A stretch of 64,000 bases of DNA from Paraburkholderia aromaticivorans (GTDB lineage Bacteria > Pseudomonadota > Gammaproteobacteria > Burkholderiales > Burkholderiaceae). The notes below the pieces were generated by a model. That model was given only the letters and a program-made list of their open reading frames with translations, did not search any database and had not been told where the DNA came from. Made by a program: the position numbers and the translations under genes. Location of the stretch: contig NZ_CP022990.1 in NCBI RefSeq assembly GCF_002278075.1, positions 2,666,001 to 2,730,000 of the forward strand, written 5' to 3'. This document shows positions 8,061-29,839 of the stretch, piece by piece. Numbering within the stretch: position 1 is the stretch's first letter; every line of letters begins with the position of its first letter.

Positions 8061-8085
8061 GAGATTTCCTTGCGACGCGAATGGA

Positions 8086-9483: not shown

Positions 9484-11820
9484 GATGAGCTCCCGCGGCG
9501 CTGGTAATGGCCGCCTGATGAGTGGAGTCGGGGCCGACCGCCGCGGCGCGCGCGATCTTCACCGGGACGGATTTGTACGACGGGGTGCGGCTTTTCGGAT
9601 CGAACGCGTAGAGCGGCACGAGCGGATTGGCCTCGGGGTAATACGCGCCGCAGCAGCCGTCGGGCAGTGAATAGTCGATCACCTTGAAACTGCGGATCAC
9701 GCGTTCGATCCCGTCGGTGGACAGCGCGTACACATCCACCCGCTCGCCGGGATGCAGATTGCGTTTCTGCAATTCGCGCGTGTTCATGAAGATCACGTCG
9801 CGCTGGCCGAACACACCGCGGTAACGGTCCGAGTGCGAGTAGAGCGTGGTGTTGTACTGGTCGTGACTGCGCATGGTGGTGAGCCATAGCGCGTCGGGAT
9901 CGTCGTGATCCGGGTTTTCGTCGAGTCCGTTGAGACGAGGAAATTGGCGCGGCCGGTAGGCGTGGCCCAGACGCGTTCGCGCGCGCTCGAGGCGAGATGG
10001 AAGCCGCCCGGCACGCGAATCCGTTCGTTGTACGCCTCAAAGATCGGGTAGACGATCTCGATCTTGTCGCGAATGCGGTCGTAGCTCGCCACGAGATGTT
10101 CCCATTCGACGTGAGAGTCCGGGCCGAGCGTGGCGCGCGCGATGCCCGCGACGATCGCCGGTTCGCTCTTCAGATGCGGTGACGCGGGCTCGTTGCGGCC
10201 ACCGGACGCGTGCACCATCGACATCGAATCCTCGACGGTAATCGACTGTGGACCGTCGGCCTGGATGTCGATCTCGGTGCGGCCGAGGCACGGCAGAATC
10301 AACGCGTTCCTGCCATGCACGAGGTGGCTGCGATTGAGTTTGGTAGCGATGTGAACCGTCAGATCGAGCTTGCGCATTGCCGCCTGCACGCGGATCCAGT
10401 CGGGCACGGCGGCGGCGAAATTGCCGCCGAGCGCGATGAACACTTTGGCGTCGCCGCGCATCATCGAGTCGATCGCGGCGATCACGTCATGGCCGTGCGC
10501 CGCGGGCGGCCGGAAGCCGAAGGCCCGTTCGATCCCGTCGATCAATGCCGGCGAGGGCTTCTCCGTGATGCCGACGGTGCGGTTGCCCTGCACGTTCGAG
10601 TGTCCGCGCACCGGGCACACGCCCGCGCCCGGCCGGCCGATATTGCCGCGCAGCAGTGCCAGGTTGACGATCTGCTGGACATTTTCGGTGCCGCGATGAT
10701 GCTGCGTGAGCCCCATGCCGTACACGAGGATCACGTTGCTGGCCTTCATGTAGATGTCGGCGGCGTTCTGGATGTCGCCGCGCGACAGCCCGCTTTGCCG
10801 TTCGATCGCCTCCCAGCTGGTGGCGCGCAGATCGGCGCGCAGGTCGTCGAGTCCGTGGGTATGTGCTTCGATGAACGCAATATCGAGCACACGGGGTTGA
10901 TCGGCGGCGAGCGCCGCGTCGTCGGCCTCGATCACGGCTTTCATCATGCCTTTGAGCACGGCGACGTCGCCGCCCACACGCACCTGATACAGAAACGAGC
11001 TGATCTGCGTGAAGCCCAGCGTGGCCATTTCCACCGGATTCTGCGGCGACGCGAAGCGCTCCAGCGCGCGCTCGCGAAACGGATTGAACGAGACGATTTT
11101 CGCGCCGCGCCGCGAGGCGCTGTGCAGATCGCTCATCATGCGCGGGCTGTTGGTGCCGGGATTCTGACCGAAGATGAAAATCGCATCCGCTTCCTCGAAA
11201 TCCTCGAGCAGGACCGTGCCCTTGCCGACGCCGATCGATTCGGGAAGGCCGACACTGGTCGCCTCGTGGCACATGTTCGAGCAGTCGGGGAAGTTGTTCG
11301 TACCGAATTCGCGCACGAAGATCTGATAGAGGAACGCGGCTTCGTTGGACGCCCGTCCCGAGGTGTAGAAGTCGGCCTGGTCGGGGCTGTCGAGACCGTT
11401 CAGATGCCGCGCGATCAGCGCGAAGGCGTCGTCCCATTCGATCGGCAGATAGCGGTCGGAGGCCGTGTCGTATGCCATGGGGTGGGTCAGGCGGCCGGCC
11501 ATTTCGAGGTCGTAGTCGTCCCAGGCGGCGAGCTCCGAGACGCTGTGCGCTGCGAAAAAGCCGGGCGTGCAGCGATTCGCGGTGGCCTCCCACGCCACGG
11601 CCTTCGCGCCGTTCTCGCAGAACTCGAACGACGATGTGTGCTTAGGATCCGGCCATGCGCAGCCCGGACAGTCGAAGCCTTCCGGCTGGTTCATCCGCAA
11701 CAGCGTCTTCGCGCCGGACACGGCGACGCCCTGCAGCGCGAGTGCCTCGCCGGTTGCCTTCAGCGCACCCCAGCCGCCCGCGGGCTCGCTGTAGACGCGG
11801 ATTGTCTTTCGTTTGGACAT
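9470..11820 (-). pseudogene. FdhF/YdeP-family molybdopterin oxidoreductase, frameshifted
   Basis: Two minus-strand frames together encode one protein. The first runs from an ATG at 11820 to about 9936 and holds most of the molybdopterin enzyme: an N-terminal CPGCAWPDP pair of cysteines, YTSGRASNEAAFLYQIFVREFG, a CSNMCHEATS segment, IFGQNPGTNSPRM and GRPGAGVCPVRGHSNVQG, ending at ATPTGRANFLV. The second continues with NGLDENPDHDDPDALWLTTMRSHDQYNTT and ends at 9470. The switch lies near 9929-9936; adding one base there restores a 783-residue reading frame. The family includes E. coli YdeP and formate dehydrogenase-like enzymes; substrate unknown. It overlaps cydA, so the electrons may feed the quinol oxidase. 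Sequencing error cannot be excluded, since the rest is intact. Confidence 0.8.
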
Positions 11821-12119
11821 GACCGTTTCCAGGTGTTGGGTTGAGGAACATGAATCGGAAGGATGGTCCCCGGCCGCACACGGGTCTTGTTTAAATGCCC
11901 GTCCGTTTCGGATTCGCACGCCGGATCAGGCCGGTATCCACGACACCGCGGCGCGCGCCGTGCGTTTTCGAAAGCGCGCAGGCGTTCTGAAAAGATCGGC
12001 GCAACGGGGCGGCAAATAATGGTTTCCACCCGGCGAGGTCGCGCGAAGTCCGCGCAGCGGCGCCGCATTCCTCGCAAGTCCGCAGCGCGCCGACATCTGA
12101 GCACCACCGGAGCATCAAC

Positions 12120-13406: not shown

Positions 13407-13863
13407 GATGGGTTCTCCGGGCGCCGGCCGCGAAGGGCTGCGCAACTGAATCGGGTGAGGGAAGACTGACGGGGCCCAGTATCGTGGTCCGCGCGGCGTC
13501 GATCTTTCACTGCGGCACGGTGGCTTGCGGATTCGCACGCATGAGACGGCCCCGGCCCGCCATGCCGCGCCAGGCGGGGAAAGCCGGCTGGATGGCCCGT
13601 CCCCGCCCGGCGCATGACGGGCTCATACGTTGGTGTGATGCGCGACGGGCTCGCGGGGGGCGGCGCTTGCGCCGCCAGCAGGGCTGAGCCCGCGGCGAGC
13701 GGGCACCGGCGGCCCGCCTCATATCCCTATGGATAATAGTTTCAGATGACTTTCCCATTTAGTATGGGATGGACGACGCAAGCCGGGCAGGGACTGCGTC
13801 GGTGCAACGGGCGACATTGCCATAACGGGCCTGTCCCGCTAATCAACCAGGCGTGAGCGCAGC
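13407..13863. other. Long promoter region upstream of the winged-helix/ATPase regulator
   Basis: No ORF here is convincing. The first 300 bases are GC-rich and featureless. The final part is AT-rich and holds two short inverted repeats 17 bases apart: TATCC-CTAT-GGATA (13722-13735) and TCCCAT-TTAGT-ATGGGA (13753-13769). They lie 95-140 bases upstream of the regulator start and could be operator or promoter elements. Confidence 0.5.
13722..13769. promoter_or_regulatory. Two adjacent short inverted repeats
   Basis: TATCC-N4-GGATA and TCCCAT-N5-ATGGGA stand in tandem in an AT-rich island upstream of the regulator at 13864. The arms share a GGAT/ATCC core in different order. They may be autoregulatory sites. 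No matching copies are evident upstream of the paralogue on the minus strand. Confidence 0.35.
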
Positions 13864-15369
13864 ATGATCAAGATCGGTCGAGTCATAGTGTCTCTGGAAA
13901 TGCGCGAGGTGTACCTGGAGAATCGATTGCTCCAGGTCGGCTCGCGCGCGTTCGATATTCTCGAATTGCTGATCCGCGCGGCGGGCAAGACGGTCACGAA
14001 AGACGAGATTTTGCGGCACGTCTGGCCGAATTCGGTGGTGGAGGAAAACAACATCCACGTGCAGTTGTCGGCGCTCAGGAAGATTTTCGGCGCCGATAGC
14101 CAGGTGATTCGCACGATCTCCGGCCGCGGCTACCGCCTGACCATTCCCGTCGACGCGTCCGAGCCGGCCGGCTCGCACGGTGCCGGCACGGCCGGCCGGG
14201 CGGGCGCCGCAAGCCGCAGCAGCTTGCCGGTTTGCCACGCGCCGTTGATCGGGCGTGACGCGGCGATTGCCGACGTTGCCCGCGCGCTGAAGAGCACGCC
14301 GATCGTCACCTTGCTCGGCTCGGGCGGCATCGGCAAGACGCAGCTCGGCATTGCGGTGGCGCGCTCGATCGCGGCGCTCTCGGACAGAGAGGTGTGTTTC
14401 ATCACGCTGGCCTCGGTGGAGAACGGCCAGGCCGCGATCAACCTGGTCGCCGACGCACTCGGCGTGGAGCGCGCGGCCGCCGATATTCCGCTTCAGTCGC
14501 TGGTCGCCGCGATTCAAGGCCGCAAGCTGCTGGTGCTGCTGGACAACTGCGAGCATGTGATCGAGTCGGCCGCAGCCATTTGCGAACTGCTGGTGCAGGC
14601 GAGCGCGGATCTTCGCATTCTGGCGACGAGCCGTGAGCCGCTGCGCACGCGCGACGAAAAGTTCTATTGGGTCGCGCCGCTCGACATGCCCGAGGCGGGC
14701 GCCGGTTCCCAGGCGATTCTCGCCTGTGCGTCGGTGCGGATGTTCCTCGCGCAGATGCATGCGCTCAACACGGTGGTCGACAGCGACCGCGGCAGCCTCG
14801 AGATGGTCGCGACGATCTGCCGCCGGCTCGACGGCGTGCCGCTCGCCCTCGAACTGGCGGCGGCCCGCGCCGCGGTGTTCGGCATCCGCAAGCTGATGGC
14901 CGAACTCGACGACCGCTTCCAGTCGCTCACCGGTGGGCGCCGCACCGCGCCGCCGCGCCAGCAGACTCTGGCGGCCGCGCTCGACTGGAGCTATCGGCTC
15001 CTCGGCACGACGGAGCGCGTGGTGCTGCAGCGGCTCGGTGTTTTTCCGGCCCGCTTTTCACTCGAAGCCGCGTGCGCCGTCGCCGCGTGCGCCCGGCTGT
15101 CGTGCAACGAAGTGACGGAAGCGATTGTCGGCCTTGCCTCGAAGTGCTTTCTCATGACGACCGTCGACAGCAAGACCAAGGAATATTTCCTGCTGGAAAC
15201 GACCCGTGAATATGCGTTGCGCAAGCTGCACGAATCGGACGAGGCGGATGAAGTGATGAGCAGACGGGCGAGCTACTTCGCTCCAGCTTACGAGGAGCCG
15301 TATGCGCGCGTTTTCGGCGCGGCGGCGCTCGGCGGCAAGCGGGCGGTTCAAGCCGTCGCCTCGCGATGA
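13864..15369 (+). CDS. Winged-helix regulator with STAND-like P-loop ATPase domain (copy 1)
   Basis: A 501-residue protein. Residues 1-95 form an OmpR/CadC-type winged helix (FDILELLIRAAGKTVTKDEIL, HVWPNSVVEENNIHVQLSALRK, GRGYRL). After a Gly/Ala linker comes a NB-ARC/AAA-like ATPase: Walker A GSGGIGKTQ at 152-160, Walker B-like LLVLLDNCEHV near 220, sensor-like ILATSREPLR, and GVPLALELAAARA. The C-terminal part is helical. Proteins of this type often continue into a long TPR-like region; here the chain stops soon after the ATPase. It probably binds DNA and switches state with ATP binding. The paralogue at 16592-18094 has the same architecture and length. Two response regulators lie between them. 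Confidence 0.85.
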   Translation: MIKIGRVIVSLEMREVYLENRLLQVGSRAFDILELLIRAAGKTVTKDEILRHVWPNSVVEENNIHVQLSALRKIFGADSQVIRTISGRGYRLTIPVDASEPAGSHGAGTAGRAGAASRSSLPVCHAPLIGRDAAIADVARALKSTPIVTLLGSGGIGKTQLGIAVARSIAALSDREVCFITLASVENGQAAINLVADALGVERAAADIPLQSLVAAIQGRKLLVLLDNCEHVIESAAAICELLVQASADLRILATSREPLRTRDEKFYWVAPLDMPEAGAGSQAILACASVRMFLAQMHALNTVVDSDRGSLEMVATICRRLDGVPLALELAAARAAVFGIRKLMAELDDRFQSLTGGRRTAPPRQQTLAAALDWSYRLLGTTERVVLQRLGVFPARFSLEAACAVAACARLSCNEVTEAIVGLASKCFLMTTVDSKTKEYFLLETTREYALRKLHESDEADEVMSRRASYFAPAYEEPYARVFGAAALGGKRAVQAVASR

Positions 15370-15462
15370 GATCGGGATTGACCGCGGTTCGCGCAGATGC
15401 TTCCCGCGGTGGGCCTTATGTACCTTGACGGCACGCGAAGCCCCATTTTTCTGGAATCTGGC

Positions 15463-16089
15463 ATGCCTGTTCCTTCGGAACTCGAACCGATGGTGTATGT
15501 GATTGACGATGAGGAGATGGTGCGTGACGCGCTGGTGCGCCTGCTGCGTTCGGCAGGCTTCGATGCACACGGCTTTGCGTCGCCCGCCGGGGTGTTGTCG
15601 CAAGCATGGCCGCGCGTGCCGATGTGCATTTTGCTGGACATGAACCTGAAGAGCACGAATGGCTTCGACGTGCAGAGCCAGCTCGCGCGCAAGGGCGTGC
15701 AGGTGCCGATTATTTTCCTGACCGGCTATGGATCGATTCCGATGTCGGTGCGCGCGATCAAGGCGGGGGCGCATGAATTCCTCACCAAGCCGATCGACGA
15801 CGAAGAACTGCTCGGAGCGGTCCGGCGAGCGTTGGCCCAGGACGAGGCCAACCTCGCCGAGCGCGCATTCCATGCGGATGTGCTGCAACGTGCCGCGGCG
15901 CTGACGCCGCGCGAGATGGACGTGTTCGAACTGGCGGTGGAAGGCAGGATGATCAAGCAGATGGCGCACGAACTGGGCACCCAGGAGGTGACGGTGAAAG
16001 TGCACAAACGGCGGGTGATGAGCAAGATGCAGGCGAAGACGCTCATCGAACTGGCCAGGATGTGGGAAGTGATCCGTCGCACGCGATGA
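15463..16089 (+). CDS. Orphan FixJ/NarL-type response regulator
   Basis: From the ATG at 15463 this is a 208-residue regulator. The receiver domain has IDDEEM, phospho-acceptor Asp59 (ILLDMNLKS), the switch Thr in FLTGYG and Lys109 (FLTKP). The C-terminal LuxR-type helix-turn-helix reads LTPREMDVFELAVEGRMIKQMAHELG then VTVKVHKRRVMSKM. Earlier in-frame starts at 15397 and 15418 exist, but the receiver domain begins shortly after 15463. It lies about 90 bases after the winged-helix/ATPase regulator and before a receiver-only gene; no histidine kinase is adjacent in this strand block. Its kinase may be one of the hybrid kinases 3-12 kb downstream. Confidence 0.88.
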   Translation: MPVPSELEPMVYVIDDEEMVRDALVRLLRSAGFDAHGFASPAGVLSQAWPRVPMCILLDMNLKSTNGFDVQSQLARKGVQVPIIFLTGYGSIPMSVRAIKAGAHEFLTKPIDDEELLGAVRRALAQDEANLAERAFHADVLQRAAALTPREMDVFELAVEGRMIKQMAHELGTQEVTVKVHKRRVMSKMQAKTLIELARMWEVIRRTR

Positions 16090-16164
16090 GCCTCCTGAAG
16101 CAGTGAATATCGCGCCGGATATTTTTTCTGTGACTACGTCGGCGCAATTGGAGTATTGGCAGCT

Positions 16165-16539
16165 ATGAGCTTTGTTTGCATCGTCGACGATGACGCCTCG
16201 GTCCGAAGTGGCGTCGGCAACCTGTTGAAAGCGGTCGGTTATACGACTGTGACATTTTCTTCGGGAGAGGAATTCCTTGCCTCCACGGTGGTCGACGATG
16301 CGCTGTGCGTTCTGCTCGATGTCAGAATGCAAGGCATGCAGGGCCTCGAAGTGCAACGCCAACTGAACGCGCAGGGCAGACATATCCCCGTGGTGTTCAT
16401 GTCCGCGCATGACGACGACGACACCGTCGCGCGGGCCTTGCGGCACGGCGCGGTCGGCTTCCTGCGCAAACCGTTCGAGGAAGAAGTGCTGCTCGATTCG
16501 ATCGAGCTCGCCATTGGACGCAAGCACGGGGCGCACTGA
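16165..16539 (+). CDS. Receiver-only response regulator
   Basis: A 124-residue stand-alone receiver domain. It has the acidic pocket VDDDAS, phospho-acceptor Asp52 (VLLDVRMQG), switch Ser in FMSAHDDDD and Lys102 (FLRKPF). There is no output domain: the chain ends IELAIGRKHGAH. The receiver sequence is of the FixJ class, so it may have lost the LuxR helix-turn-helix, or act as a phosphate sink or diffusible signal for a kinase or the neighbouring regulators. The ATG at 16165 has GGAG at 16150-16153. It is convergent with the second winged-helix/ATPase gene, whose stop is about 50 bases away. Confidence 0.85.
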   Translation: MSFVCIVDDDASVRSGVGNLLKAVGYTTVTFSSGEEFLASTVVDDALCVLLDVRMQGMQGLEVQRQLNAQGRHIPVVFMSAHDDDDTVARALRHGAVGFLRKPFEEEVLLDSIELAIGRKHGAH

Positions 16540-16591
16540 GCGCAGGCGTGAGCGCGGCGTCCGTTCGACGGTCCGGGATCGTGGGAGCCGA

Positions 16592-18067
16592 TCAGCCGTA
16601 GCGCGTGGCCGGCGCCTCCGCCTCGTCCTCTAGCGTACTGTGCGTGCGAACGTAGCGTTCGTGCCAGCGCTCGAGCGTTTCGCTCTCGCCGGCCTCAGCG
16701 AGCAACTGCAGCGCATAGGCGCGGGTCGTTTCGAGCAGGTAATAGCGCATGGCCGACCCGCAGGGCCCGAACATCAGCAGCGACTTCGAGACCAGACCGG
16801 CGATCGCGTCGGTCACCTCGCCCATGGACAGGTCTTCGCATGCGGCGATCGCACACGCCTCGCCGAGCTGGAAGCTGCCGTGAAACACGCCGAGGCGGCG
16901 CAACACCGTGCGTTCGCGCTTGCACAGAAATTGACTGCTCCAGTCGAGCGCCGCCTTCAGGTTTTGCTGGCGCGCCGGCGCGGTGCGCAGTCCGCCGGTC
17001 AGCACGCGAAAGCGATTGTCCAGTTGCGCGACCAGTTCGCGGATACCCAGCGCGGTGACCCGGGCCGCCGCCAGTTCCAGCGCGAGCGGCACGCCGTCGA
17101 GCCGCCGGCAGATCGTGCCGATCAGGCGGACGCTCTCGCTGTCGGCCCGAAAGTGCGGATCACGCGCGCGAGTCCGCGCAATGAACATGTGGACCGCGCT
17201 GTACTTGAGAATCTCGTCGGGCACGAGGTCTTCGCCGGGCACCTCGAGCGGCGCCACCCAGTAAACCTGTTCGATGCGGGTTCGCAAGGGCTCGCGGCTC
17301 GTCGCGAGGATCCTGAGATGGGGATTGGCCTGAACGAGTTGCTCGCAGATCGTCGCGGCCTCCTGGATCACGTGCTCGCAATTGTCGAGCACGAGCAGCA
17401 GCTTGCGTGCGCCGATGGCTTGAATCAGGCGCTCCGCACTGGCCCCGGCATGCACCGCATCCAGCGCAAGCGCTTCGGCGATTGCGCGCAAGGTCGACTC
17501 CGGGCGCTCGACGGCCGAAAGGCTGACGAAGCGGACCTCGTCGAACGACGCTATCTGGCCGCGTGCCGCTTCCAGGCCCAGTTGTGTTTTGCCGATGCCG
17601 CCGGTGCCGACCAGCGTCACGAGCGGCGCGCGGCCAAGCGCGGCTGTCACGTCGGCGAGCGCCTGCTCGCGCCCGATCAGGGGCGTGCAGGAGTGCGGCA
17701 CGTTGCTCGACGCGGTGGCCTCGGCCGGGCGTGGCGGGTGGGCCGGCGCTTCGTTCGCGCAGACCTTCGCGTCATGCGAGCGGATCAGGCGATAGCCGCG
17801 GCCGGGGATGGTCTTGATGAGGTCCTTGTCTTCGCCGAGCAGTTTCCGCAGCGCGGAGATATGCACCTGCAGGTTGCTTTCCTCCACCACCGTTTCCGGC
17901 CACACGTGCTGAAACAGCGTCTCTTTGCTCACCAGCCGCCCGCCCGCCTCGATCAGCACTTCGAGAATGTCGAACGCGCGCGCGCCGACGCGCAATGGCC
18001 GGTCTTCCAGAAAAAGCTGGCGGCGCTCCAGCGAAACGTCGACTCGTCCGATCTTGATCATGACCAT
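16592..18067 (-). CDS. Winged-helix regulator with STAND-like P-loop ATPase domain (copy 2)
   Basis: A paralogue of the protein encoded at 13864-15369. The winged helix (FDILEVLIEAGGRLVSKETLF, HVWPETVVEESNLQVHISALRK, GRGYRL) and the ATPase (GTGGIGKTQLGLEAARG, LLLVLDNCEHV, ILATSREPLR, GVPLALELAAARV) align almost residue for residue with copy 1. Copy 2 also keeps a C-terminal TLETTRAYALQLL-like helix (LETTRAYALQLLAEAGE). I place the start at the ATG at 18067 (MVMIKIGRV), which matches the start of copy 1 within two residues; ATG codons at 18094 and 18061 are alternatives. Length is about 491 residues. It faces the receiver-only gene and is divergent from the OmpR-type regulator. Ligand and targets are unknown. 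Confidence 0.85.
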   Translation of the reverse strand: MVMIKIGRVDVSLERRQLFLEDRPLRVGARAFDILEVLIEAGGRLVSKETLFQHVWPETVVEESNLQVHISALRKLLGEDKDLIKTIPGRGYRLIRSHDAKVCANEAPAHPPRPAEATASSNVPHSCTPLIGREQALADVTAALGRAPLVTLVGTGGIGKTQLGLEAARGQIASFDEVRFVSLSAVERPESTLRAIAEALALDAVHAGASAERLIQAIGARKLLLVLDNCEHVIQEAATICEQLVQANPHLRILATSREPLRTRIEQVYWVAPLEVPGEDLVPDEILKYSAVHMFIARTRARDPHFRADSESVRLIGTICRRLDGVPLALELAAARVTALGIRELVAQLDNRFRVLTGGLRTAPARQQNLKAALDWSSQFLCKRERTVLRRLGVFHGSFQLGEACAIAACEDLSMGEVTDAIAGLVSKSLLMFGPCGSAMRYYLLETTRAYALQLLAEAGESETLERWHERYVRTHSTLEDEAEAPATRYG

Positions 18068-18406
18068 TCCGCTTGGGGTTTCGTGAGCGTGCATCGAGGC
18101 AATGGAGACGATCTTATGAGTCGCGCGATCTCCTCAGGATGGGGGAATCGTTAACCTTAGTTAATACGTCGGTTCGAAAAGCCCGAAAGCCCGAAAGCCC
18201 GCTTGCCGCGCAAGACGCGGTGACTTTTTTCACAGCCGTGACTCTAGCGGGGGCGGTCCGCTCAAAGATTAAAAAAATTTAATGGCATGGGTCAATCGGA
18301 TGTCGTGCTTTTCGCGGATAATCGGCCGATTAGCGAGCATTTCGCCCGAGGACACGCGTGAGCGCGGGCGGTGCATCAAATGACGATGGGAAGGCACGAG
18401 CCTTAA
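18068..18406. other. Divergent promoter region with palindromes
   Basis: Between the second winged-helix/ATPase gene (minus) and the OmpR-type regulator (plus). It holds an inverted repeat TTAAC-CTTA-GTTAA (18151-18164), an 8-base tandem repeat GCCCGAAA in 2.6 copies (18181-18201), an A/T-rich island (18266-18283) and a 14-base perfect palindrome (18319-18332). No ORF is supported. Confidence 0.6.
18319..18332. promoter_or_regulatory. 14-base perfect palindrome upstream of OmpR-type regulator
   Basis: TAATCGGCCGATTA reads the same on both strands and ends 74 bases upstream of the ATG at 18407. Its position fits an operator for a dimeric regulator, possibly for autoregulation of the signalling operon. 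Confidence 0.45.
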
Positions 18407-19087
18407 ATGAAAATCTTGCTCGTCGAAGACAACGAACAGGTCGCTGGATTTCTGAAGAAGGGCCTCGTCGAGGAAGGGCATGTGATCGATACGGCCGACA
18501 ACGGCCGGGACGGCATGTTCCTCGCCGCCAGCGAGACCTATGACGCCATCATCATGGATCGCATGCTGCCGGGCGGTATCGACGGCTTGGGGATCATCGC
18601 GGCGTTGCGCGCAACCGGCAACCGGGTGCCTATCCTGATCGTGAGCGCGCTCGACGACGTCGACGAACGGATTCGCGGCCTGAAGGCGGGCGGTGACGAC
18701 TACGTGGTCAAGCCGTTTGCATTCGGCGAGGTGCTGGCACGCCTGGACGCGCTGACCCGGCGGGCGCATGAAAGCTACGCGGAAACCACGCTGAAGGTCG
18801 GCGATCTCTCGATCGACCTGCTCTCGCGCAAGGTGGCGCGCGCCGGCAAGCCGATCGCGCTGAAGCCGCGCGAATTCAAGCTGCTGGAGTACCTGATGCG
18901 CCACGCCGACCAGGTCGTCACGCGCACCATGCTGCTCGAAAATATCTGGGACTATCATTTCGACCCGCAAACGAACGTCATCGACGTGCATGTAAGCAAG
19001 TTACGCCACAAGATCGATGCGGATTTCGAGCGGTCTTTATTGAGGACGGTTCGCAACGCCGGCTACATGCTGACGGCAAACGAATAG
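18407..19087 (+). CDS. OmpR/PhoB-family response regulator
   Basis: A 226-residue regulator close in style to QseB/CusR/TctD. Receiver domain: VEDNEQ pocket, phospho-acceptor Asp51 (IIMDRMLPGG), IVSALDDVDER switch and Lys in VVKPFAF. The C-terminal winged helix has LKPREFKLLEYLMRHADQVVTRTMLLENIWDYHFDPQTNVIDVHVSKLRHKID. The operon continues with a giant kinase 25 bases later. A classical membrane sensor kinase usually follows such regulators; none is here, so the soluble kinases downstream are the likely partners. A GGAAGG-like ribosome site lies upstream of the ATG. Confidence 0.92.
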   Translation: MKILLVEDNEQVAGFLKKGLVEEGHVIDTADNGRDGMFLAASETYDAIIMDRMLPGGIDGLGIIAALRATGNRVPILIVSALDDVDERIRGLKAGGDDYVVKPFAFGEVLARLDALTRRAHESYAETTLKVGDLSIDLLSRKVARAGKPIALKPREFKLLEYLMRHADQVVTRTMLLENIWDYHFDPQTNVIDVHVSKLRHKIDADFERSLLRTVRNAGYMLTANE

Positions 19088-19112: not shown

Positions 19113-22100
19113 ATGATCGAGTTGTCAGGCTTCGGGTTCGAAACGCTCTGCGATGACGGCGAGTTCCTCCTGTCCCGTATCGACCGGCGCGACGGTGCGC
19201 CAACGTGGCTGACCGTCACGTTGCCGGCGCAGCAACCCAGCGCCCATAGTCAGGCGCGTCTCGAGCATGCGTATGAGTTGCGCGGCCTGCTCGACGGCCG
19301 GTTCGCGACCCGCCCGCACGCACTGATCGAGCACCGCGGGAGCACGGCGCTGGTGCTGGAAGACCCGGGCGGCGTGTCGCTCGCCGCGCTGCCGCACGGC
19401 TCCTGGCCGCTTGGCCGCCTGCTGCGCGTCGCCGCCAATCTTGCGGCCGCGCTCGGCGCGCTGCACGGGCGCGGTCTGATCCACAAGGACATCCGGCCGG
19501 CCAACATCCTGGTGAATCCGGACACGGGCGACGTGGCGTTGACCGGCTTCGGCATTGCCTCGCACGCGAGCGGCGAGGCGCAGTCCGGCGCGCTGCCCGA
19601 CTTCAGCGCGAGCGCGCTCGCCTATCTCGCACCGGAACAGACCGGCCGCATGAATCGTGCGACCGACTCGCGCGCCGATCTCTATTCGCTCGGCATCACG
19701 TTGTATGAGATGCTGACCGGTGCGTTGCCGTATCGCGCGAACTCGCCTATCGAGTGGATTCACTGCCATATCGCGAGGACGCCCATTCCATTGAGCGAGC
19801 TGGCCGGCAATGTGCCGCATCAGGTGGCCGCGATCGTCATGCGGCTGCTTGCGAAAGCCGCCGAGGATCGCTATCAGACAGCGCAGGGCCTGGAAGACGA
19901 TTTGCGTCGCTGCCTGAACGCCTGGGAGCAAAGCGGGCGCATCGAACCGTTCGCGCTCGGCGCTCAGGACTGCCCCGAACGTCTTGTCATCCCCGAGCGC
20001 CTGTATGGGCGCGAAGCGGAAACCCGGGCGTTGAGCGCCGCGTTCGATCGCGTGGTGCGGCAAGGCGCGGCGGAACTCGTGCTCGTGTCGGGCTATTCGG
20101 GAATCGGCAAATCGTCGCTGGTGAACGAACTGCACACGAGGCTCGGGCCGTCCGGCGGCCACTTCGCCGCGGGCAAATTCGACCAGTACAAACGCGATAT
20201 CCCCTATGCGACGCTCGGCCAGGCGTTTCAGAGCCTCACGCAGCAGATCCTCACTCAAGATGCGGAGAAACTCGCACGTTGGCGCGGGCGGCTCGCCGAA
20301 GCCGTCGGCACGAACGGACAGCTGATCGTCAACCTGATTCCGGAACTCGAACGGATTCTCGGCCCGCAGCCGGCGGTGCCCGAGCTTCCGGCGCAGGAAG
20401 CACAGGTTCGCTTTCAAGGCGTGTTCGGGCGCTTCATCGGCGCCTTTGCGGACCCCGAGCATCCGCTCGTGCTCTTCCTCGACGATTTGCAGTGGCTCGA
20501 CGCCGGCACGCTCAGTCTGCTGGAAAGCCTGCTTGCCGCGCCGAACCTGCGCAATCTGCTGCTCGTCGGCGCCTATCGCGACAACGAGGTCGGGCCCGCC
20601 CATCCGCTCGCCCGCGCGCTCGTCGCGATTCGCGAGCAGGGTGTGCCGGTCCACGATATCGTGCTCACGCCGCTGCAGGTCGGCGATGTGGCGCGCCTGA
20701 GCGGCGAAGCGCTGCATGCCGCGCCGGCCGAGGTTGCGCAACTCGCGCAATTCATCGTCGAGAAAACCGGCGGCAATCCTTTCTTCACGGTGCAATTTCT
20801 CAAGATGCTCGCCGAGGACCGGCACCTCGCGTTCGATCCGGCGCGGCGGGTGTGGGAATGGGACATGGCGGCCCTGCGCGAGACGCACTTTTCCGACAGC
20901 GTCGTCGACCTGATGGTCGGCAAGATCGAACGGGTCGCGGATGCCACGCAGGTCGCGCTCAAGCAGTTCGCCTGCTTCGGCAATAGCGCGGCGAGCGCAA
21001 TGCTCGCGCGCGTCGGCGGCACTTCGGACGCGCAGGTGGAGCGTGCGCTGGCCGCTGCGGTGGAGGCGGGCCTCGTGTTCCGGCGCGAGCGCGGCTATGC
21101 GTTTCTGCACGACCGGGTGCAGGAAGCGGCCTACGCGCTGATTCCCGAAAGCGAGCGCGCGGCCGCTCATTTGAGCATCGGCCGGATGTTCGCGACCCAC
21201 GCGAGCGCCGAGGAGATCGAGCAGAACATCTTCGAGATCGTCAACCAGTACAACCGCGCGGTCGGGATCGTCGACGACCCCGCCGAGCGCCGGCGCGTGG
21301 TGGAATTCAATCTGATTGCCGGGCGGCGCGCCAAGGCCTCGTCCGCTTACGCGTCGGCGGCGACGTATCTGTCGACCGGCAGCGCCATGCTCGGCGACGC
21401 GGGCTGGCAGACCTGCTACGCGCTCAAGTTCGCGCTGGAGAGCGGGCTCGCGGAGTGCGAGTTCCTGACCGGCGACACCGGCCCGGCGAAGGAACGGCTG
21501 GCGAACCTCGCGCGGCGCGCCGTCGATCTGCCCGATCGGGCAACGGTGGCGTGGTTGCGTGTCACGCTTTTCACCGCGCTCGACCAGAGCGATCTGGCGG
21601 TGCAGATTTGCCTCGATTATCTGCGCGATGTCGGCATCGACTGGCAGCCGCATCCCAGCCGCGAGGAGGCGCGTGGCGAATACGACCGGCTGCTCGCCCA
21701 GATCGGCGATTCTCCGATCGAGTCGTTGATCGATCTGCCGCTTCTCACCCATCGCGACCGGCGCGCCACGCTCGACGTGCTGACCGCGGTCCTGCCGCCG
21801 GCTTTTTTCAGCGACGAGAATCTCGTTTGCCTCGTGCTGTGCCGCATGGCGAACCTGAGCCTCGAATATGGCAACAGCGACGCGTCGTCGATCGGCTATG
21901 CCTACCTCGGCATGGTGGCCGGCCCGGTGTTCGGCGACTATGAGGCCGCGTTCCAGTTCGGCCGGCTCGGCCTCGCGCTGGTCGACGAACGCGGGCTGCA
22001 CCGTTTCCGGCCACGCGTCTATATGTGCTTCGCTTATCACGTGATGCCGTGGACGAAGCACATTCGCACCGGTTTGCCGCTGTTGCGCCGCGCATTCGAT

Positions 22101-24122
22101 GCCGCCAGCGAGAGCGGCGACCTCACTTACACCGGTTTCAGCAGTTGCACTCTCGTGACGAGCCTGCTGGCCGCGGGCGATCCGCTCGCCGATGTCGAGC
22201 GCGTGGCGCAGCAGCGTTTAGGCGTGGTGCAGGCCGGGAAATTCGGCCTGATCGTCGACATCATCGGTTCGCAGCTGCAGCTGATTCGGACCCTGCGGGG
22301 GCTGACACGTTCATTCGGCTCCTTCAGCGACGAGGCATTCGACGAAACGTCCTTCGAGCAACATCTCGAAGCCGACCCCTGTCTCGCGATCGCGACCTGC
22401 TGGTACTGGATTCGCAAGCTGCAAGCGCGCTATTTCGCCGGAGATGTCACGGCGGCGCTGGCGGCCGCCGCGAAAGCCGCGCCGCTGTTGTGGACCTCGT
22501 CCGGTCACTTCGAGATCGCCGAATATCATTTCTACGCGGCGCTGGCATGCGCGCGCGCGTACGACGAGGCGCCGCCCTATCTGCATGAGGCGCAATACCG
22601 GATGCTGGCCGGGCATCAAGCCCGGCTCGTTACCTGGGCCAAGCATTGTCCGAGCAATTTCGCCTGCCGTTCGGCGCTCGTTGCCGGCGAGATCGCGCGG
22701 ATCAACGGCAATGAATTCGAGGCGATGCGCGAATACGAAAGCGCGATCCGTCTCGCCCGCGAGCACGAGTTGCCGCTGGTCGAAGGGCTGGCTCATGAAG
22801 TGGCCGGCACGTTTTATCTGGCGCGCGGATTCACGACCATCGCGTTCGTCTATCTCGGCAACGCGCGGCTCGCGTACCTTAGGTGGGGCGCGCTAGGGAA
22901 GGTCGAGGCGCTCGACCGGCGCTATCCGAACCTGGTCCACGAACCCGCGGCCGATACGCCGACGCGCAGCATCGTCGCGGAGCAACTCGATGTCGAGACG
23001 GTGGTGAAAGCGTCGCAAGCCATTTCGGGCGAGATTGCCTTCGACAAACTGATCCGCACGTTGATGACCATCATGCTCGAACATGCCGGCGCCGGGCGAG
23101 CGCTGCTCGTTCTGCCGCGCGACGAGAAATTGTGGATCGAGGCGCAGGCGCTCGCGAATCGCGAGGGTATCGAGGTGCAGCTGCATAACGCTGTCGTGAC
23201 GCCGCGCGATTTGCCGGCCTCGATTCTGCATGCCAGCATTCGCACGCAGGAGCGCGTGCTGCTCGACGACGCGTCGCTGCCCAATCCATTCTCGACGGAC
23301 GACTACTTCCGCACGACCTCTGCTCGCGCGGTTCTGTGTTTGCCGCTCGTGAAGCAGGCAAAACTGATCGGCGTGTTGTACCTGGAAAACGATCTCGCGC
23401 CGGGGGTGTTCACGCCGCCGCGGCTCGCGGTGCTCACGCTTCTGGCGTCGCAGGCGGCGATTTCGCTTGAAAACGCGTCGCTGGAAGAGAAAGGAGCGTT
23501 GCTCGAAGAGAAAGAGGCGTTGCTTCACGAAGTGCATCACCGGGTGAAGAACAATCTGCAACTGATCAGCAGCCTGCTCAACTTGCAGGCGGCGCGCGTG
23601 ACCGACAAGGCCGTGGCTGATCTTTTCGCCGACAGCCGCAACCGGGTGCGGTCGATGGCGCTGGTGCACGAGAATCTGTATCGGGCCGGCAACTTTGCGC
23701 GCATTGCGATGGCGACCCACGTGAAGAATCTGTGCGGCCATCTGGCGCGCGCCTACGACATGCGCCAGATGGAGGTCGAGTTGCTGGTCGAGGTCGACGA
23801 CATGCAGCTCGATATGAACCGCGCCGTATCGTGCGGCCTGATTGTCAACGAGCTGGTGTCCAACGCCTTGAAGCACGCGTTTCCCGACGGGCGCGGCGGT
23901 TGTGTGCGCGTCGAGCTCGGCATGGTCGACAACGAGCGGTGCAGACTGGCCGTGGCCGACGACGGCGTCGGCATCGCGCCGGAATTCTCACTGGAAGAGG
24001 CGGACTCGCTGGGCCTCCAACTGGTTCACGACCTGACCCACCAACTGCACGGCACGGTGGAGCTGAGCCGCGGCGGCGGCACGATCTGCAGCATTCTTTT
24101 CAACCCAACCGGACGTGGATAA
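19113..24122 (+). CDS. Ser/Thr kinase-like / AAA ATPase / GAF / histidine kinase fusion
   Basis: A 1669-residue soluble protein. Residues about 1-275 form a protein kinase fold: catalytic-loop motif HKDIRPAN (His124, Asp126, Asn131), APEQ activation end and SRADLYSLGITLYEMLTG. The metal-binding DFG is GFG (145-147), and no VAIK lysine is evident, so phosphotransfer activity is doubtful. Residues 300-700 are an AAA-type ATPase with Walker A GYSGIGKSS (327-335) and FLDDLQWLD. A long helical, TPR-like region follows to about 1280, then a GAF domain (about 1310-1460), then an HisKA_2 histidine kinase with HEVHHRVKNNLQ (His1475/1476) and HATPase motifs NELVSNALKHAF and DDGVGIAP. This matches the known multidomain class related to fungal-type CHK1 kinases. 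It is in an operon with the OmpR-type regulator. Confidence 0.9.
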   Translation: MIELSGFGFETLCDDGEFLLSRIDRRDGAPTWLTVTLPAQQPSAHSQARLEHAYELRGLLDGRFATRPHALIEHRGSTALVLEDPGGVSLAALPHGSWPLGRLLRVAANLAAALGALHGRGLIHKDIRPANILVNPDTGDVALTGFGIASHASGEAQSGALPDFSASALAYLAPEQTGRMNRATDSRADLYSLGITLYEMLTGALPYRANSPIEWIHCHIARTPIPLSELAGNVPHQVAAIVMRLLAKAAEDRYQTAQGLEDDLRRCLNAWEQSGRIEPFALGAQDCPERLVIPERLYGREAETRALSAAFDRVVRQGAAELVLVSGYSGIGKSSLVNELHTRLGPSGGHFAAGKFDQYKRDIPYATLGQAFQSLTQQILTQDAEKLARWRGRLAEAVGTNGQLIVNLIPELERILGPQPAVPELPAQEAQVRFQGVFGRFIGAFADPEHPLVLFLDDLQWLDAGTLSLLESLLAAPNLRNLLLVGAYRDNEVGPAHPLARALVAIREQGVPVHDIVLTPLQVGDVARLSGEALHAAPAEVAQLAQFIVEKTGGNPFFTVQFLKMLAEDRHLAFDPARRVWEWDMAALRETHFSDSVVDLMVGKIERVADATQVALKQFACFGNSAASAMLARVGGTSDAQVERALAAAVEAGLVFRRERGYAFLHDRVQEAAYALIPESERAAAHLSIGRMFATHASAEEIEQNIFEIVNQYNRAVGIVDDPAERRRVVEFNLIAGRRAKASSAYASAATYLSTGSAMLGDAGWQTCYALKFALESGLAECEFLTGDTGPAKERLANLARRAVDLPDRATVAWLRVTLFTALDQSDLAVQICLDYLRDVGIDWQPHPSREEARGEYDRLLAQIGDSPIESLIDLPLLTHRDRRATLDVLTAVLPPAFFSDENLVCLVLCRMANLSLEYGNSDASSIGYAYLGMVAGPVFGDYEAAFQFGRLGLALVDERGLHRFRPRVYMCFAYHVMPWTKHIRTGLPLLRRAFDAASESGDLTYTGFSSCTLVTSLLAAGDPLADVERVAQQRLGVVQAGKFGLIVDIIGSQLQLIRTLRGLTRSFGSFSDEAFDETSFEQHLEADPCLAIATCWYWIRKLQARYFAGDVTAALAAAAKAAPLLWTSSGHFEIAEYHFYAALACARAYDEAPPYLHEAQYRMLAGHQARLVTWAKHCPSNFACRSALVAGEIARINGNEFEAMREYESAIRLAREHELPLVEGLAHEVAGTFYLARGFTTIAFVYLGNARLAYLRWGALGKVEALDRRYPNLVHEPAADTPTRSIVAEQLDVETVVKASQAISGEIAFDKLIRTLMTIMLEHAGAGRALLVLPRDEKLWIEAQALANREGIEVQLHNAVVTPRDLPASILHASIRTQERVLLDDASLPNPFSTDDYFRTTSARAVLCLPLVKQAKLIGVLYLENDLAPGVFTPPRLAVLTLLASQAAISLENASLEEKGALLEEKEALLHEVHHRVKNNLQLISSLLNLQAARVTDKAVADLFADSRNRVRSMALVHENLYRAGNFARIAMATHVKNLCGHLARAYDMRQMEVELLVEVDDMQLDMNRAVSCGLIVNELVSNALKHAFPDGRGGCVRVELGMVDNERCRLAVADDGVGIAPEFSLEEADSLGLQLVHDLTHQLHGTVELSRGGGTICSILFNPTGRG

Positions 24123-24131: not shown

Positions 24132-27074
24132 ATGGCGCCCGCCCGCATTCTTGTAGTCGAAGACGACCGCGTCGTCGCCAGAGACCTGGCGCAGCAGATG
24201 AGCCGCGCGGGCCACACGGTGGTCGGCATCACCGCGCGCGGCGAAGACGCCTTGCCGCTCGCCGCGCAAACCGCGCCTGATCTGGTCCTGATGGACGTAC
24301 GGCTGGAGGGCGAGCTCGACGGCGTCGACACCGCCCGGCTGCTTCGCGAGAATCTGAATCTGCCCGTGGTCTTCCTGACCGCGTATGCCGACGAGGACAC
24401 CGTGCGGCGCGCAACGTTTGCCGAACCGTTCGGCTACGTTCTGAAGCCGTTCGACGACACGCAATTGACGACGGTCGTCGAAATGGCGCTCTACAAGCAC
24501 GGCGCCGAACGGCGGCTGCGCGAAAGCGAGCAGCGCTACGCCGTCACGCTTTCGAGTATCGGCGACGCGGTGATCGCGACCGACCGGGAGTCGCTGATCA
24601 CTTTCATCAACCCGGTCGCCGAAGCGCTGACCGGCTGGTCACGCGAGGCGGCGACGGGGCGGCCGCTCGCGGACGTATTTCGCGTGATCAACGAAACGAC
24701 CCGCGCGCCGGCCGAAGATCCGGTGGCGGCCGTGCTGGCTGCGGGGACGATCGTCGGGCTCGCGAATCATACGGTCTTGCTGGCGCGCGACGGGCGCGAG
24801 ATCGCCATCGACGACAGCGGTTCGCCAATCGTCGACGAGCGCGGCGAAATCCGCGGCGTGGTGCTGGTGTTTCGCGACGTGACACAGCGGCGCCGCGCCG
24901 AAGAGGCCGAAATACTGCGCGAGACGAATGCACGCCTCGAATCGGCGATGTACGGGTCCAACGTCGGCGTGTGGGAAATCGACATGCCCGAGGGCGATCA
25001 TCGCCGGGGCTTCGCGCGCTTCTCGAACATCTGGGAGTGGCTCGGCTATACCCGTCCGCAGACGCTGCTGGACTACGACGCGTATATGAGCATCGTGCTT
25101 CCGGAGGACCGCGCGGGCACCGAAGCCGAGATGCTTCGATACCTTGGCAAGGAAATCGATGTGTTCGAAGTGGAGAACCGCCTGTGCCATCGCGACGGAA
25201 CCGTGCGGTGGGTTCTCGTGCGCGGCATGGCGACGTGGGATGCGCTCGGCAAGCCGATCCGCTTCGTCGGCAGCCTGGTGGATATCACCGAGCTGAAACA
25301 CACGGAACAGGCGCTGCGTTCGAGCGAGGCTCGCTTTCGGGGCACCTTCGAAAACGCGGCGGTCGGCATCGCGCACTGCGATCTCGACGGGCGGTTCCTG
25401 CGTGTGAATCAGCGCTTATGCGATATCGTCGGCTATGAGCGTGAGACGCTGTTGCACAAACGCTTCCATGAAATCGCCAATGCGGATTTTCTCACGGCGA
25501 GCGCGGAGAAATTACGCCGCCTGAGCGAGGGCCAACTCTCGCACTATTCGGAGGAGATGCCGCTCTTCAGACGCGACGGCTTGCGGGTTTGGGTGAGCGT
25601 GTCGGTCGCGCTTCAGCGTGACGCGAGCGGGCGGGCGATCCACACCATTGCGATTCTCCAGGACATCTCCGCGCGAAAGGCGCTCGAAGATACGGTGCGG
25701 GTCGCGAAAGACGCCGCGGAATCGGCGAACCGTGCCAAAGATCAATTCCTTGCCAACATCAGCCACGAATTGCGCACGCCACTGAACGGCATTCTCGGTT
25801 ACGCGCAGATCTTGCGGCGCGATGCGGCGATGACCGAGCGGCAACTGGCGAGTCTCGGCGTTATCGAGCAGAGCGGCGAGCATCTGCTCATGCTGATCAA
25901 CGACCTTCTCGACTTCGCGCGCATCGAGGCCGGCAAGCTCGAACTGAACGTGACGGACGTGCCGCTCGGGCCTTTCTTGCGCGTGATCGCCGAGATGGTG
26001 GGGGTTCGCGCCGAGCAGAAACAACTGACGCTGAACTACGAGGTGCCGTCGAATCTGTCGAAGGTGATTCGCGTCGACGAAAAGCGCCTTCGTCAGGTGC
26101 TGCTGAATCTGCTTGCCAACGCGGTCACGTTCACGGACCGGGGTGAAGTCACGCTTGCCGTGCGCACGGTTGCCGACGCACGGCTGCGTTTCGAGGTGCG
26201 CGATACCGGTGTCGGCGTGAGTCCGGACAGGCTCGAGACGATCTTCCAGCCGTTCGAACAGGCCGGCGATTTCACCCGGCGCACGGGCGGCGTGGGTCTC
26301 GGGCTGGCGATCAGCCGTCAGCTGGTGCGCATGATGGGCGGTGAAATCAAAGTGGTGAGCGTGGTGGGTCAAGGCAGCATGTTCTGGTTCGAACTCGATG
26401 CGCCGGTGTCTTATGCGCAGACATTGAATTGCGCTCCGGCGCTGGAGATAGCGGGCAATGAGCGGCATGTGCTCGTGATCGACGATGTGTCCGCGAATCG
26501 CGCACTGATAGTCGACGCGCTGCAACGTTGCGGTTTTCAAGTTTCGCAGAGTGGCGACGGACGCGATGCGTTGGACAAGGCGCTCGCCTGTCCTCCCGAT
26601 CTGATCCTGCTCGACACCGTCATGCCGGTGATGGGCGGTCTGGAGTTGCTCGGCCATCTGCGCGCCTCGGATGTGTTGCGTCAGGTGCCGGTGATCGCCG
26701 TGTCCGCGGACGCCTCGCAACGCAATGCACAGGCGAACCTCGACGCGGGCGCCAACGTCTTTCTCGAGAAGCCGCTCGATCTCGACCGCCTGTTCAAGGA
26801 GATCGCCGCGCTACTCGCATTGAAATGCACGATCCGGCCGGCGCCCGTCAGCATGAACGCCGCGTCGATCGTGCCACCGCGCGATGAAGTGGCGGTGCTG
26901 CATCGCTATGCGTTGCTGGGGTCGATGCGCGACATCGTGCGTCACGCGGATTATCTCGTGAGCCGCGACAGCCGTTACGAACCCTTTGCGGCGCAGTTGC
27001 GCCGTCTCGCAGCGGGCTACGAGTCGCAAGCCTTGCTATCGCTGATAGAACAACATCTGGATCTGAACTCGTGA
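24132..27074 (+). CDS. Hybrid sensor kinase: receiver, three PAS, histidine kinase, receiver
   Basis: A 980-residue soluble hybrid kinase. Residues 1-120: receiver with Asp55 (LVLMDVRLEG) and Lys105 (VLKPF). Residues about 130-520: three PAS/PAC units (FINPVAEALTGWS; WEWLGYTRPQTL; VNQRLCDIVGYE). HisKA with phospho-acceptor His545 (ISHELRTPLNGILGYAQIL), HATPase with LLANAVTFTDRG, DTGVGVS and GGVGLGLAISRQLV. A second receiver has Asp828 (ILLDTVMPVMGG) and Lys in FLEKPLD. A helical tail of about 90 residues follows; it could be a degenerate Hpt-like module, but I see no clear phospho-acceptor His motif. The gene starts 9 bases after the giant kinase and overlaps the next gene by 4 bases. Confidence 0.92.
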   Translation: MAPARILVVEDDRVVARDLAQQMSRAGHTVVGITARGEDALPLAAQTAPDLVLMDVRLEGELDGVDTARLLRENLNLPVVFLTAYADEDTVRRATFAEPFGYVLKPFDDTQLTTVVEMALYKHGAERRLRESEQRYAVTLSSIGDAVIATDRESLITFINPVAEALTGWSREAATGRPLADVFRVINETTRAPAEDPVAAVLAAGTIVGLANHTVLLARDGREIAIDDSGSPIVDERGEIRGVVLVFRDVTQRRRAEEAEILRETNARLESAMYGSNVGVWEIDMPEGDHRRGFARFSNIWEWLGYTRPQTLLDYDAYMSIVLPEDRAGTEAEMLRYLGKEIDVFEVENRLCHRDGTVRWVLVRGMATWDALGKPIRFVGSLVDITELKHTEQALRSSEARFRGTFENAAVGIAHCDLDGRFLRVNQRLCDIVGYERETLLHKRFHEIANADFLTASAEKLRRLSEGQLSHYSEEMPLFRRDGLRVWVSVSVALQRDASGRAIHTIAILQDISARKALEDTVRVAKDAAESANRAKDQFLANISHELRTPLNGILGYAQILRRDAAMTERQLASLGVIEQSGEHLLMLINDLLDFARIEAGKLELNVTDVPLGPFLRVIAEMVGVRAEQKQLTLNYEVPSNLSKVIRVDEKRLRQVLLNLLANAVTFTDRGEVTLAVRTVADARLRFEVRDTGVGVSPDRLETIFQPFEQAGDFTRRTGGVGLGLAISRQLVRMMGGEIKVVSVVGQGSMFWFELDAPVSYAQTLNCAPALEIAGNERHVLVIDDVSANRALIVDALQRCGFQVSQSGDGRDALDKALACPPDLILLDTVMPVMGGLELLGHLRASDVLRQVPVIAVSADASQRNAQANLDAGANVFLEKPLDLDRLFKEIAALLALKCTIRPAPVSMNAASIVPPRDEVAVLHRYALLGSMRDIVRHADYLVSRDSRYEPFAAQLRRLAAGYESQALLSLIEQHLDLNS

Positions 27075-28234
27075 GCTCGACCGACCCATTCGATACCGGT
27101 GCGCCCATCGTTCTGGTGGTTGACGACACGCCCGCCAATCTTGGGCTGGTGGTCGAATGCCTCGAAAGCAATAACCTGAGAGTGGCCATCGCCCGCGACG
27201 GCATGGAGGCGTTGCGCCGCGCCGAGCTGGCGCAGCCCGATCTGATCCTGCTCGACGTGATGATGCCGGGACTCGACGGTTTCGAAACGTGCCGGCGGTT
27301 GAAGGCGATGGAGAAAACCCGCGACATTCCGGTGATCTTCATGACTTCCCTGACACGCACGGAGGAAAAGATCACGGGCTTTCGTGCGGGCGCGGTGGAC
27401 TACATTACCAAGCCGTTGCAGATGGAAGAACTCGCCGCGCGAGTGGATACGCATCTGAAACTGCGTGCCTTGCAGCAATTGCAGGAAAAGCACAATGTTC
27501 AGTTGCAACAGGAAGTGAAGACGCGCAAGCAGGCAGAAGAGGCGCTGATCGAAGTGATTAACGGCGTGCGCAACGTGTCGAACGCAATTGCTCACGACTT
27601 GCGCACACCGTTGACCGAATTGCGCTCACGTCTCGAAGTGCTGACTATCACGTCCAGACGAGTGGGCAATGAGGAGATATTGCCGGAACTGGAGGTCGCG
27701 CTGACGGATGTCGATCGCGTGATCAGTATCTTCAATGCGCTATTGCGTCTTGCCGAAATCGACGCGGGCGTGAGGCGCTCAGGCTTTGCGCCGTGCGACC
27801 TGAGCGCGATTGTCTCGGATGCCGTCGAGTTTTATCAGCCTGTGGCTGAATTACGTAACGTCACGTTGTTGCTGGAGTGCGTGGGCGATCTCACGGCCGT
27901 GGCCGACCAGCTTTTGCTCGCGCAAGCGATCGGCAATCTGATCGACAACGCGTTGAAGTTTGCGCCGGACGGTGGTGAGACCAGGGTTGTCGCGATTCGT
28001 CACGGCGACATGATTTCGATCTCGGTGGCGGACGACGGACCTGGCATTCCGGATGCGGAAAAGCCCAAGGCAACCGAGCGTTTTTATCGTGGCGACGCGA
28101 GCCGTGGTACACCCGGTGTGGGGCTTGGCCTGGCGCTCGTGAAGTCGGTGGCGACACTTCACCGCGGATCGCTGGAGTTTACGGACAATACGCCTGGACT
28201 GATTGCGACGCTGAAGGTGAGTGGTCGTCTTTGA
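27071..28234 (+). CDS. Receiver-histidine kinase protein
   Basis: A 387-residue protein that starts with GTG in a GTGA overlap with the upstream gene, showing translational coupling. Residues 1-130: receiver with VVDDTPANL, Asp62 (LILLDVMMPGLDG) and Lys113 (ITKP). A coiled-coil linker (about 130-165) leads to a HisKA domain with His174 (IAHDLRTPLTELRSRLEVL) and an HATPase with NLIDNALKFAPDGG, DDGPGIP and GVGLGLALVKSV. It has no membrane segment and no separate sensor domain, so it probably takes its input through the receiver, relaying phosphate from the kinases encoded before it. It closes the operon 18407-28234. Confidence 0.92.
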   Translation: MSSTDPFDTGAPIVLVVDDTPANLGLVVECLESNNLRVAIARDGMEALRRAELAQPDLILLDVMMPGLDGFETCRRLKAMEKTRDIPVIFMTSLTRTEEKITGFRAGAVDYITKPLQMEELAARVDTHLKLRALQQLQEKHNVQLQQEVKTRKQAEEALIEVINGVRNVSNAIAHDLRTPLTELRSRLEVLTITSRRVGNEEILPELEVALTDVDRVISIFNALLRLAEIDAGVRRSGFAPCDLSAIVSDAVEFYQPVAELRNVTLLLECVGDLTAVADQLLLAQAIGNLIDNALKFAPDGGETRVVAIRHGDMISISVADDGPGIPDAEKPKATERFYRGDASRGTPGVGLGLALVKSVATLHRGSLEFTDNTPGLIATLKVSGRL

Positions 28235-29717: not shown

Positions 29718-29839
29718 GCGCGCGCGCGTGTGATTATCCGCTGCGCGGCCGTCGCGCGACCCCGACGATGTCGTCGCGAGTGCGGCTTGCGTGCAGGCTC
29801 CGCGAAGCCAGGCCCGGCTTCCCGTCATTCCACGTGCCA

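Follow-up and report, generated by a model that had tools for sequence, protein, structure and literature searches.

What opens a STAND ATPase that carries no sensor of its own? As a rule, a protein of this class (Apaf-1, plant NLRs and MalT are examples) opens when a ligand occupies the sensor in its own chain. The question is raised by a locus in a 64,000-nucleotide stretch of the Paraburkholderia aromaticivorans genome (NZ_CP022990.1, positions 2,666,001 to 2,730,000; hereafter the window). A preliminary description had noted there two paralogous winged-helix/ATPase regulators of about 500 residues and without repeats, which lie on opposite strands (13864-15369 and 16592-18067) and enclose a FixJ-type regulator and a receiver-only protein. 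This layout was confirmed. The two regulators, here called Q1 and Q2, share 54% identity, and both are winged-helix plus STAND (NBD-HD-WHD) proteins of about 490-500 amino acids (aa) that lack an arm and TPR; the enclosed genes are called R1 (FixJ-type) and R2 (receiver-only). What is conserved at this locus is Q1 followed by R2, with R1 as an optional member, and this pairing suggests that a sensor-less STAND switch takes its signal from a phosphorelay.

Architecture and conservation of the Q1-R2 unit

A structure model together with fold matches placed a STAND NOD core in Q1 (NBD, HD and WHD, with P-loop and Walker B), and the NOD residues G152, G155, G157, K158, T159 and D227 were invariant in all 33 aligned Q sequences. 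Order in the model stopped at about residue 472 and was followed by a disordered tail; neither an arm nor a repeat sensor was found after the NOD, and the Pfam scan gave no TPR match at E 1e-3. Weak TPR matches were present in a 1006-aa Q paralogue of the same genome. The same scan (E 1e-3) detected no BTA domain in Q1 or Q2, and no Response_reg match was obtained for either protein although both carry a winged helix. The AfsR structures were not among the best 50 matches of the fold comparison, which is evidence in neither direction.

R1 combines a receiver with a GerE helix-turn-helix, the architecture of the FixJ family. Its best NCBIfam match was FixJ with 160.8 bits, short of the equivalog cut-off of 255, and we therefore call it FixJ-type by architecture without identifying it as FixJ itself. 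R2 is a receiver without an output domain, for which the best NCBIfam match, again below the cut-off, was the FixJ receiver. It retains the phosphorylation residues, which were conserved in 17 of 17 aligned R2-type proteins.

To delimit the conserved unit, we compared the eight Q1-orthologue loci that were found (the window, L014, L015, L016, L017, L018, L125 in genome G295 and L126 in G267) in a search that scored five candidates per genome, so that Q places here and below are those among the matches listed. R2 lay downstream of Q1 in all eight, with or without R1 between them. R1 is dispensable, since it was intact in only five: at L016 a 61-aa GerE end is all that remains of it between Q1 and R2 (11674-11859), and none was detected between the two genes at L017 and L126. 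Within the fetched flanks, Q2 faced R2 only in the window genome and in G295, where the four proteins were 63-84% identical to those of the window. The genes after R2 varied. They were Q2, a giant Ser/Thr-His kinase chimera (L016 and L017, where the R2 stop overlaps the predicted start of the kinase gene), an ordinary histidine kinase with an OmpR-type regulator (L018) or unrelated genes; no giant kinase was present within the fetched flanks of L014, L015, L018 and L126, four of the eight loci. The conserved unit is thus Q1-(R1)-R2, and the four genes, found together at only two of eight loci, were rejected as one conserved unit.

The preliminary description had also attributed Q1 and Q2 to duplication. 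In an IQ-TREE phylogeny of 33 rows, the Q1 genes of all eight loci formed a clade with 100/100 support that left Q2 outside, and Q2 grouped with the Q2 of G295, also at 100/100; the tree had some long branches and open forks, but both of these groups had full support. A recent tandem duplication was rejected on these grounds, and in the phylogeny Q1 and Q2 are old lineages that did not arise by local duplication. Short Q genes divergent from an OmpR-type regulator and giant kinase, as Q2 is, were found at L027/L192 (same sequence), L160, L165, L166 and L194.

Short Q genes, receivers and giant kinases

The fetched loci contained 242 Q homologues, of which 234 remained after removal of 3 duplicates and 5 truncated genes. 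Forty-six were classed as short (<560 aa) by simple gene calls of our own, and a few members of this class are fragments, the smallest of 233 aa. A receiver domain lay within 3 kb of 33 of the 46 short Q genes, as against 11 of the 188 long ones; for a receiver within 1.5 kb downstream on the same strand the counts were 24/46 and 1/188, and for a giant kinase within 3 kb they were 22/46 and 3/188. Fisher p values for these associations ranged from 2e-20 to 3e-15 with relatedness ignored. On a 236-row tree, the short state changed 14 times.

Comparable units occurred in other genera. The order Q-receiver (123 aa)-FixJ (207-224 aa) was found in ten genomes of genus g12, whose loci had been chosen because the Q and R2 places lay together (adjacency there is the selection criterion), and on plasmid pBPJTT of Burkholderia pyrrocinia (L274), where the annotation reads AAA family ATPase / winged helix / response regulator / response regulator. 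By our own gene calls, a giant kinase started divergently 187-347 bp 5′ of Q in ten of these eleven loci. At L274 the annotated gap between Q and kinase is 328 bp and the giant kinase is complete; those of the other nine loci have their far end beyond the fetched stretch. In G258 the kinase lies about 4 kb from Q with three predicted genes between. Because the g12 units and kinases resemble L274 (83-94% kinase identity for the six best matches), g12 is probably Burkholderia. On the tree, a receiver gene was next downstream in 13 of the 14 members of this Burkholderia-type clade, again for Q places among the matches listed, and in the fourteenth (L164) a giant kinase came first and then FixJ. 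Pseudomonas sp. JUb42 (L023) has the order Q-FixJ-receiver, and Trinickia (L161) has Q-receiver-FixJ with a convergent giant kinase.

In the window genome, Q1 had 13 matches, four of them full-length (E below 1e-100); ten receiver matches included two R2-like proteins (100 and 74%), and a query made of the giant kinase's first 500 residues had three matches, two of which spanned it. All eight of these genes (four full-length Q, two R2-type and two giant kinases) fall in one stretch of 54 kb, C2:2636024-2690122. The further Q paralogues, of 1006 aa (C2:2656327, L124) and 612 aa (C2:2643337, L123), precede the window by about 10 and 23 kb. A giant kinase gene (G000:C2:2636470-2641980, the same as L123:470-5980) comes 71 bp after the second R2-like gene, and its product is 76% identical to the kinase that follows R2 at L017 and 72% identical to that at L016. 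It is likely, on this resemblance, the orthologue of those R2-overlapping kinases, and is for the same reason predicted to be a phosphate source for the R2 of the window. Three giant kinases scanned in full carried Pkinase, HisKA/HisKA_2 and HATPase in a single chain. The one at 19113-24122 has the order Pkinase-AAA-GAF-His kinase and is of HisKA_2 type, as against HisKA in L123 and L274. A sub-threshold Pfam TPR_CHK1 match was seen in one giant kinase.

A DNA element and the surrounding genes

A 13-bp element, CTATGGATAATRG, lies at 13727-13739, 137 bp 5′ of Q1. This is its sole exact copy in the 8.9-Mb genome, where one-mismatch places elsewhere numbered 1, as against 3 for a reversed-pattern control. 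Scored at ≤2 mismatches in the 400 bp before the Q start, the element was present before 21 of 25 Q genes with a receiver next downstream (L126, L163, L166 and L227 lacked it) and before 1 of the 209 other Q genes (L194). Since the pattern had been derived from the alignment of 15 of the 25 loci, the other ten are a fair test, and six of them carried it (L125, L149, L158, L159, L161 and the Pseudomonas locus L023). In G207 and G275 (L187 and L188) it occurred with 0 mismatches 105 bp before R2, with Q1 and R1 missing, so that either protein as its sole binder was rejected. The element may instead be a core promoter or a site for another regulator, for example the FixJ-type protein encoded at 4429-5127; no canonical −35 hexamer before it was recognised by eye in the locus alignment. 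Across 299 genomes there were 16 exact places (5 for the reversed control), eight at the module and eight elsewhere. Of the latter, six belonged to genomes of 1.2-3.3 Mb and two to genus g3; when twelve genes of the window served as queries, none of them had a match within 1.5 kb of these places. A wider regulon was rejected on these counts within the genome and across the 299.

The features of the locus are collected in Table 1.

Table 1. Features of the Q1-R2 locus and adjoining kinase genes, in window coordinates
Feature	Position	Strand	Remark
13-bp element CTATGGATAATAG	13727..13739	+	5′ of Q1; part of a putative promoter/operator kept at receiver-linked STAND loci
Q1: OmpR-type winged helix (1-94) and STAND NOD (~124-472), without arm/TPR, 501 aa	13864..15369	+	
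R1: FixJ-type response regulator (receiver and GerE)	15397..16089	+	Alternative start at 15463 possible
R2: receiver-only (CheY-like), 124 aa	16165..16539	+	Constant companion of Q1
Q2: Q1 paralogue, winged helix and STAND NOD, 489 aa	16592..18061 (or to 18067)	-	Divergent from the OmpR/giant-kinase operon
Divergent intergenic region, Q2 / OmpR-type regulator	18068..18406	.	Blocks conserved in G295 (two-sequence alignment)
OmpR-type response regulator, first gene of the kinase operon	18407..19087	+	Type-B unit with Q2
Giant kinase: Ser/Thr kinase-AAA_16-GAF-HisKA_2-HATPase, 1669 aa	19113..24122	+	
Hybrid PAS histidine kinase with receivers	24132..27074	+	Next gene, same direction as the giant kinase
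Receiver and histidine kinase protein	27071..28234	+	Next gene, same direction as the hybrid PAS kinase

The gene for the FixJ-type regulator 5′ of Q1 (4429-5127, +) overlaps at its end that of a PAS histidine kinase (2616-4439, +), and a FixJ-type gene also lay 5′ of Q1 in six of the seven other Q1 loci. A molybdopterin oxidoreductase is split into two overlapping frames in the window (9470-9874 and 9793-11820, −). Because its relatives at L014 and L018 have one predicted frame of 783 aa, the window gene looks frame-shifted or mis-sequenced. Genes within 7071-9483 presumably encode cytochrome bd oxidase subunits. Near the unit, the interval 40323-43209 holds a flavohaemoglobin-like protein (globin and FAD/NAD domains) and a GAF sigma-54 activator. 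The bd oxidase-like, flavohaemoglobin-like and activator genes all lie near the unit and hint that the region is concerned with low-oxygen or nitric-oxide stress. The kinase genes are followed, at 28390-30389, by genes for a DnaJ/CbpA-like protein, a MerR_2-domain protein and a CBS-domain protein.

Control of the sensor-less switch and known systems

In TPR-type STANDs, autoinhibition comes chiefly from the arm, with a contribution from the sensor, and the arm and repeat sensor are present 'in most cases', so that they are not obligatory (PMC6468293). In AfsR, the DNA-binding part is inhibited by the NOD and TPR, an inhibition that ATP relieves (PMC10936776). Because a sensor-less NOD repeatedly adjoins a phosphorylatable receiver, we propose, as the simplest interpretation, the receiver as the missing control, provided in trans. 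Under this 'split' STAND scheme, R2 would receive its phosphate from the giant kinase at G000:C2:2636470-2641980 or from another histidine kinase, R2-phosphate would dock on the Q1 NOD in the role of the missing arm and sensor, docking would shift Q1 between ADP-closed and ATP-open states, and Q1 would then assemble on DNA. R1 would add an optional second output, and Q2 would have the same role for the neighbouring OmpR/giant-kinase operon, the receiver being on the OmpR-type regulator. Gating of the Q1 NOD by R2-phosphate is possible, and among the explanations considered here it is the one that we tentatively favour. It seems doubtful that, more specifically, a separate phosphorylated CheY-like sensor replaces the arm and sensor in trans, with the giant Ser/Thr-His kinase and its own AAA_16 as the input. 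To our knowledge, no phosphorelay-gated STAND transcription factor is known, and this would be the first.

Several observations weigh against gating by R2. Six of 21 R2-type places (best 14 candidates per genome scored) had no adjacent Q. Among these were G207 and G275, which share the site of the Q1 locus (cyd-like genes, molybdopterin oxidoreductase, gene 12120) and keep R2 with the DNA element there, followed by a hybrid histidine kinase, in the absence of Q1 and R1. In the window, no kinase gene directly adjoins Q1-R1-R2, and 13 of the 46 short Q genes had no receiver within 3 kb. A search through the predicted proteins of the fetched loci gave no fusion of Q with a receiver. Giant kinases occurred in at least 85 of the 299 genomes of the family, and since many of the places listed for them (e.g. 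G037, G280, G196) had no adjoining Q place among those listed, the giant kinase as such is not tied to Q. Finally, of the 35 short genes with signalling neighbours, 25 belong to one 29-row clade, the other ten coming from lineages such as L163, L165, L166, the five-row clade with L027 and the L168/L193 group; an independent-pairs test, which was under-powered with 9 supported pairs, was not significant (median p 1; 0.5 for the downstream trait). The association of the short form with receivers is therefore strong in the sequences compared but rests on few independent events.

This concentration in one clade and the non-significant pair test would fit a reading in which Q, receivers and kinases are separate regulators, gathered and co-inherited in a regulatory island, the shared element reflecting common promoter descent. 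The four Q paralogues of differing length, the 1006-aa protein included, within one region and the persistence of the element before R2 where Q1 and R1 are missing point the same way. Linkage alone is nevertheless unlikely, as the adjacency of Q and receiver survives reshuffled gene order (Q-FixJ-REC and Q-REC-FixJ), changed kinase placement and a range of genera that includes Pseudomonas, and as short lineages outside the main clade (L163, L165, L166 and the five-row clade with L027) also lie by response regulators or giant kinases. Alternatively, the kinase could have parallel outputs, its His end feeding R2 and R1 (with R2 as a phosphate sink or shuttle) and its Ser/Thr end acting directly on Q, so that Q and R2 never touch. 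The presence of both kinase types in one chain would allow this, R2 beside a histidine kinase without Q in G207 and G275 is in keeping with it, and there is a precedent in AfsR, a substrate of several Ser/Thr kinases, among them that of the neighbouring gene, AfsK; Ser/Thr phosphorylation alone, however, has little effect on AfsR activation (PMC10936776). Moreover, Q1 and R2 stay paired in L014, L015, L018 and L126, where no giant kinase was found within the fetched flanks; of these, L018 has nearby an OmpR-type regulator and a histidine kinase of the ordinary kind. We judge parallel outputs to be unlikely too. Least credible, and very improbable, is a single four-gene unit born of ATPase gene duplication: its layout does recur in G295 with well-matched proteins, but Q2 is missing from most Q1 loci, groups apart from the Q1 clade, and faces an OmpR/giant-kinase operon as its short counterparts do at L027/L192, L160, L165, L166 and L194.

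Thus, of the combined circuit that had been proposed at the outset, the tie between sensor-less STANDs and receivers stands, at the Q1 loci, in the Burkholderia-type clade and in the comparison of short with long Q genes, while the specific four-gene circuit does not; the initial observation was right, and the better supported module, Q1-(R1)-R2, lies inside that circuit. If borne out, a recurrent sensor-less STAND form tied to phospho-receivers would connect two large classes of bacterial signalling. It would also pose the question of how a STAND that has no arm stays shut, and would provide a small system of two proteins for switching STAND opening with phosphate in vitro.

No description of a STAND-receiver module was found in the literature searched, most subscription literature lying outside that search. 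Q1 has the kind of winged helix found in the OmpR/PhoB response regulators, but it carries an ATPase switch and its receivers are on separate proteins. R1 and R2 resemble FixJ-family and single-domain response regulators; unlike these, they have a STAND gene as constant neighbour and, in the window, no directly adjoining kinase. MalT and PH0952 are STAND regulators with a TPR sensor, and the DNA-binding domain of MalT is C-terminal and of LuxR type, whereas Q1 has an N-terminal OmpR-type winged helix and lacks the arm and sensor. The nearest well-studied STAND regulator with an OmpR-type winged helix that we know of is AfsR. The AfsR-type large SARP of the AfsK-AfsR system of Streptomyces has in common with Q1 an N-terminal OmpR-type winged helix, a STAND NOD and a nearby Ser/Thr kinase gene, but has a BTA domain between winged helix and NOD (PMC10936776); Q1 lacks BTA, arm and TPR. 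The neighbours of Q1, unlike those of AfsR, are receivers and, in some relatives, the Ser/Thr-His kinase chimera. The giant kinases show the same order of Ser/Thr kinase, AAA, GAF and His kinase as the CHK1-like fungal histidine kinases. CHK1 has Ser/Thr-kinase and GAF domains (PMC9069115). It also has an AAA part. The giant kinases differ from these fungal proteins in being bacterial and in that a subset of them is linked to receivers and sensor-less STANDs.

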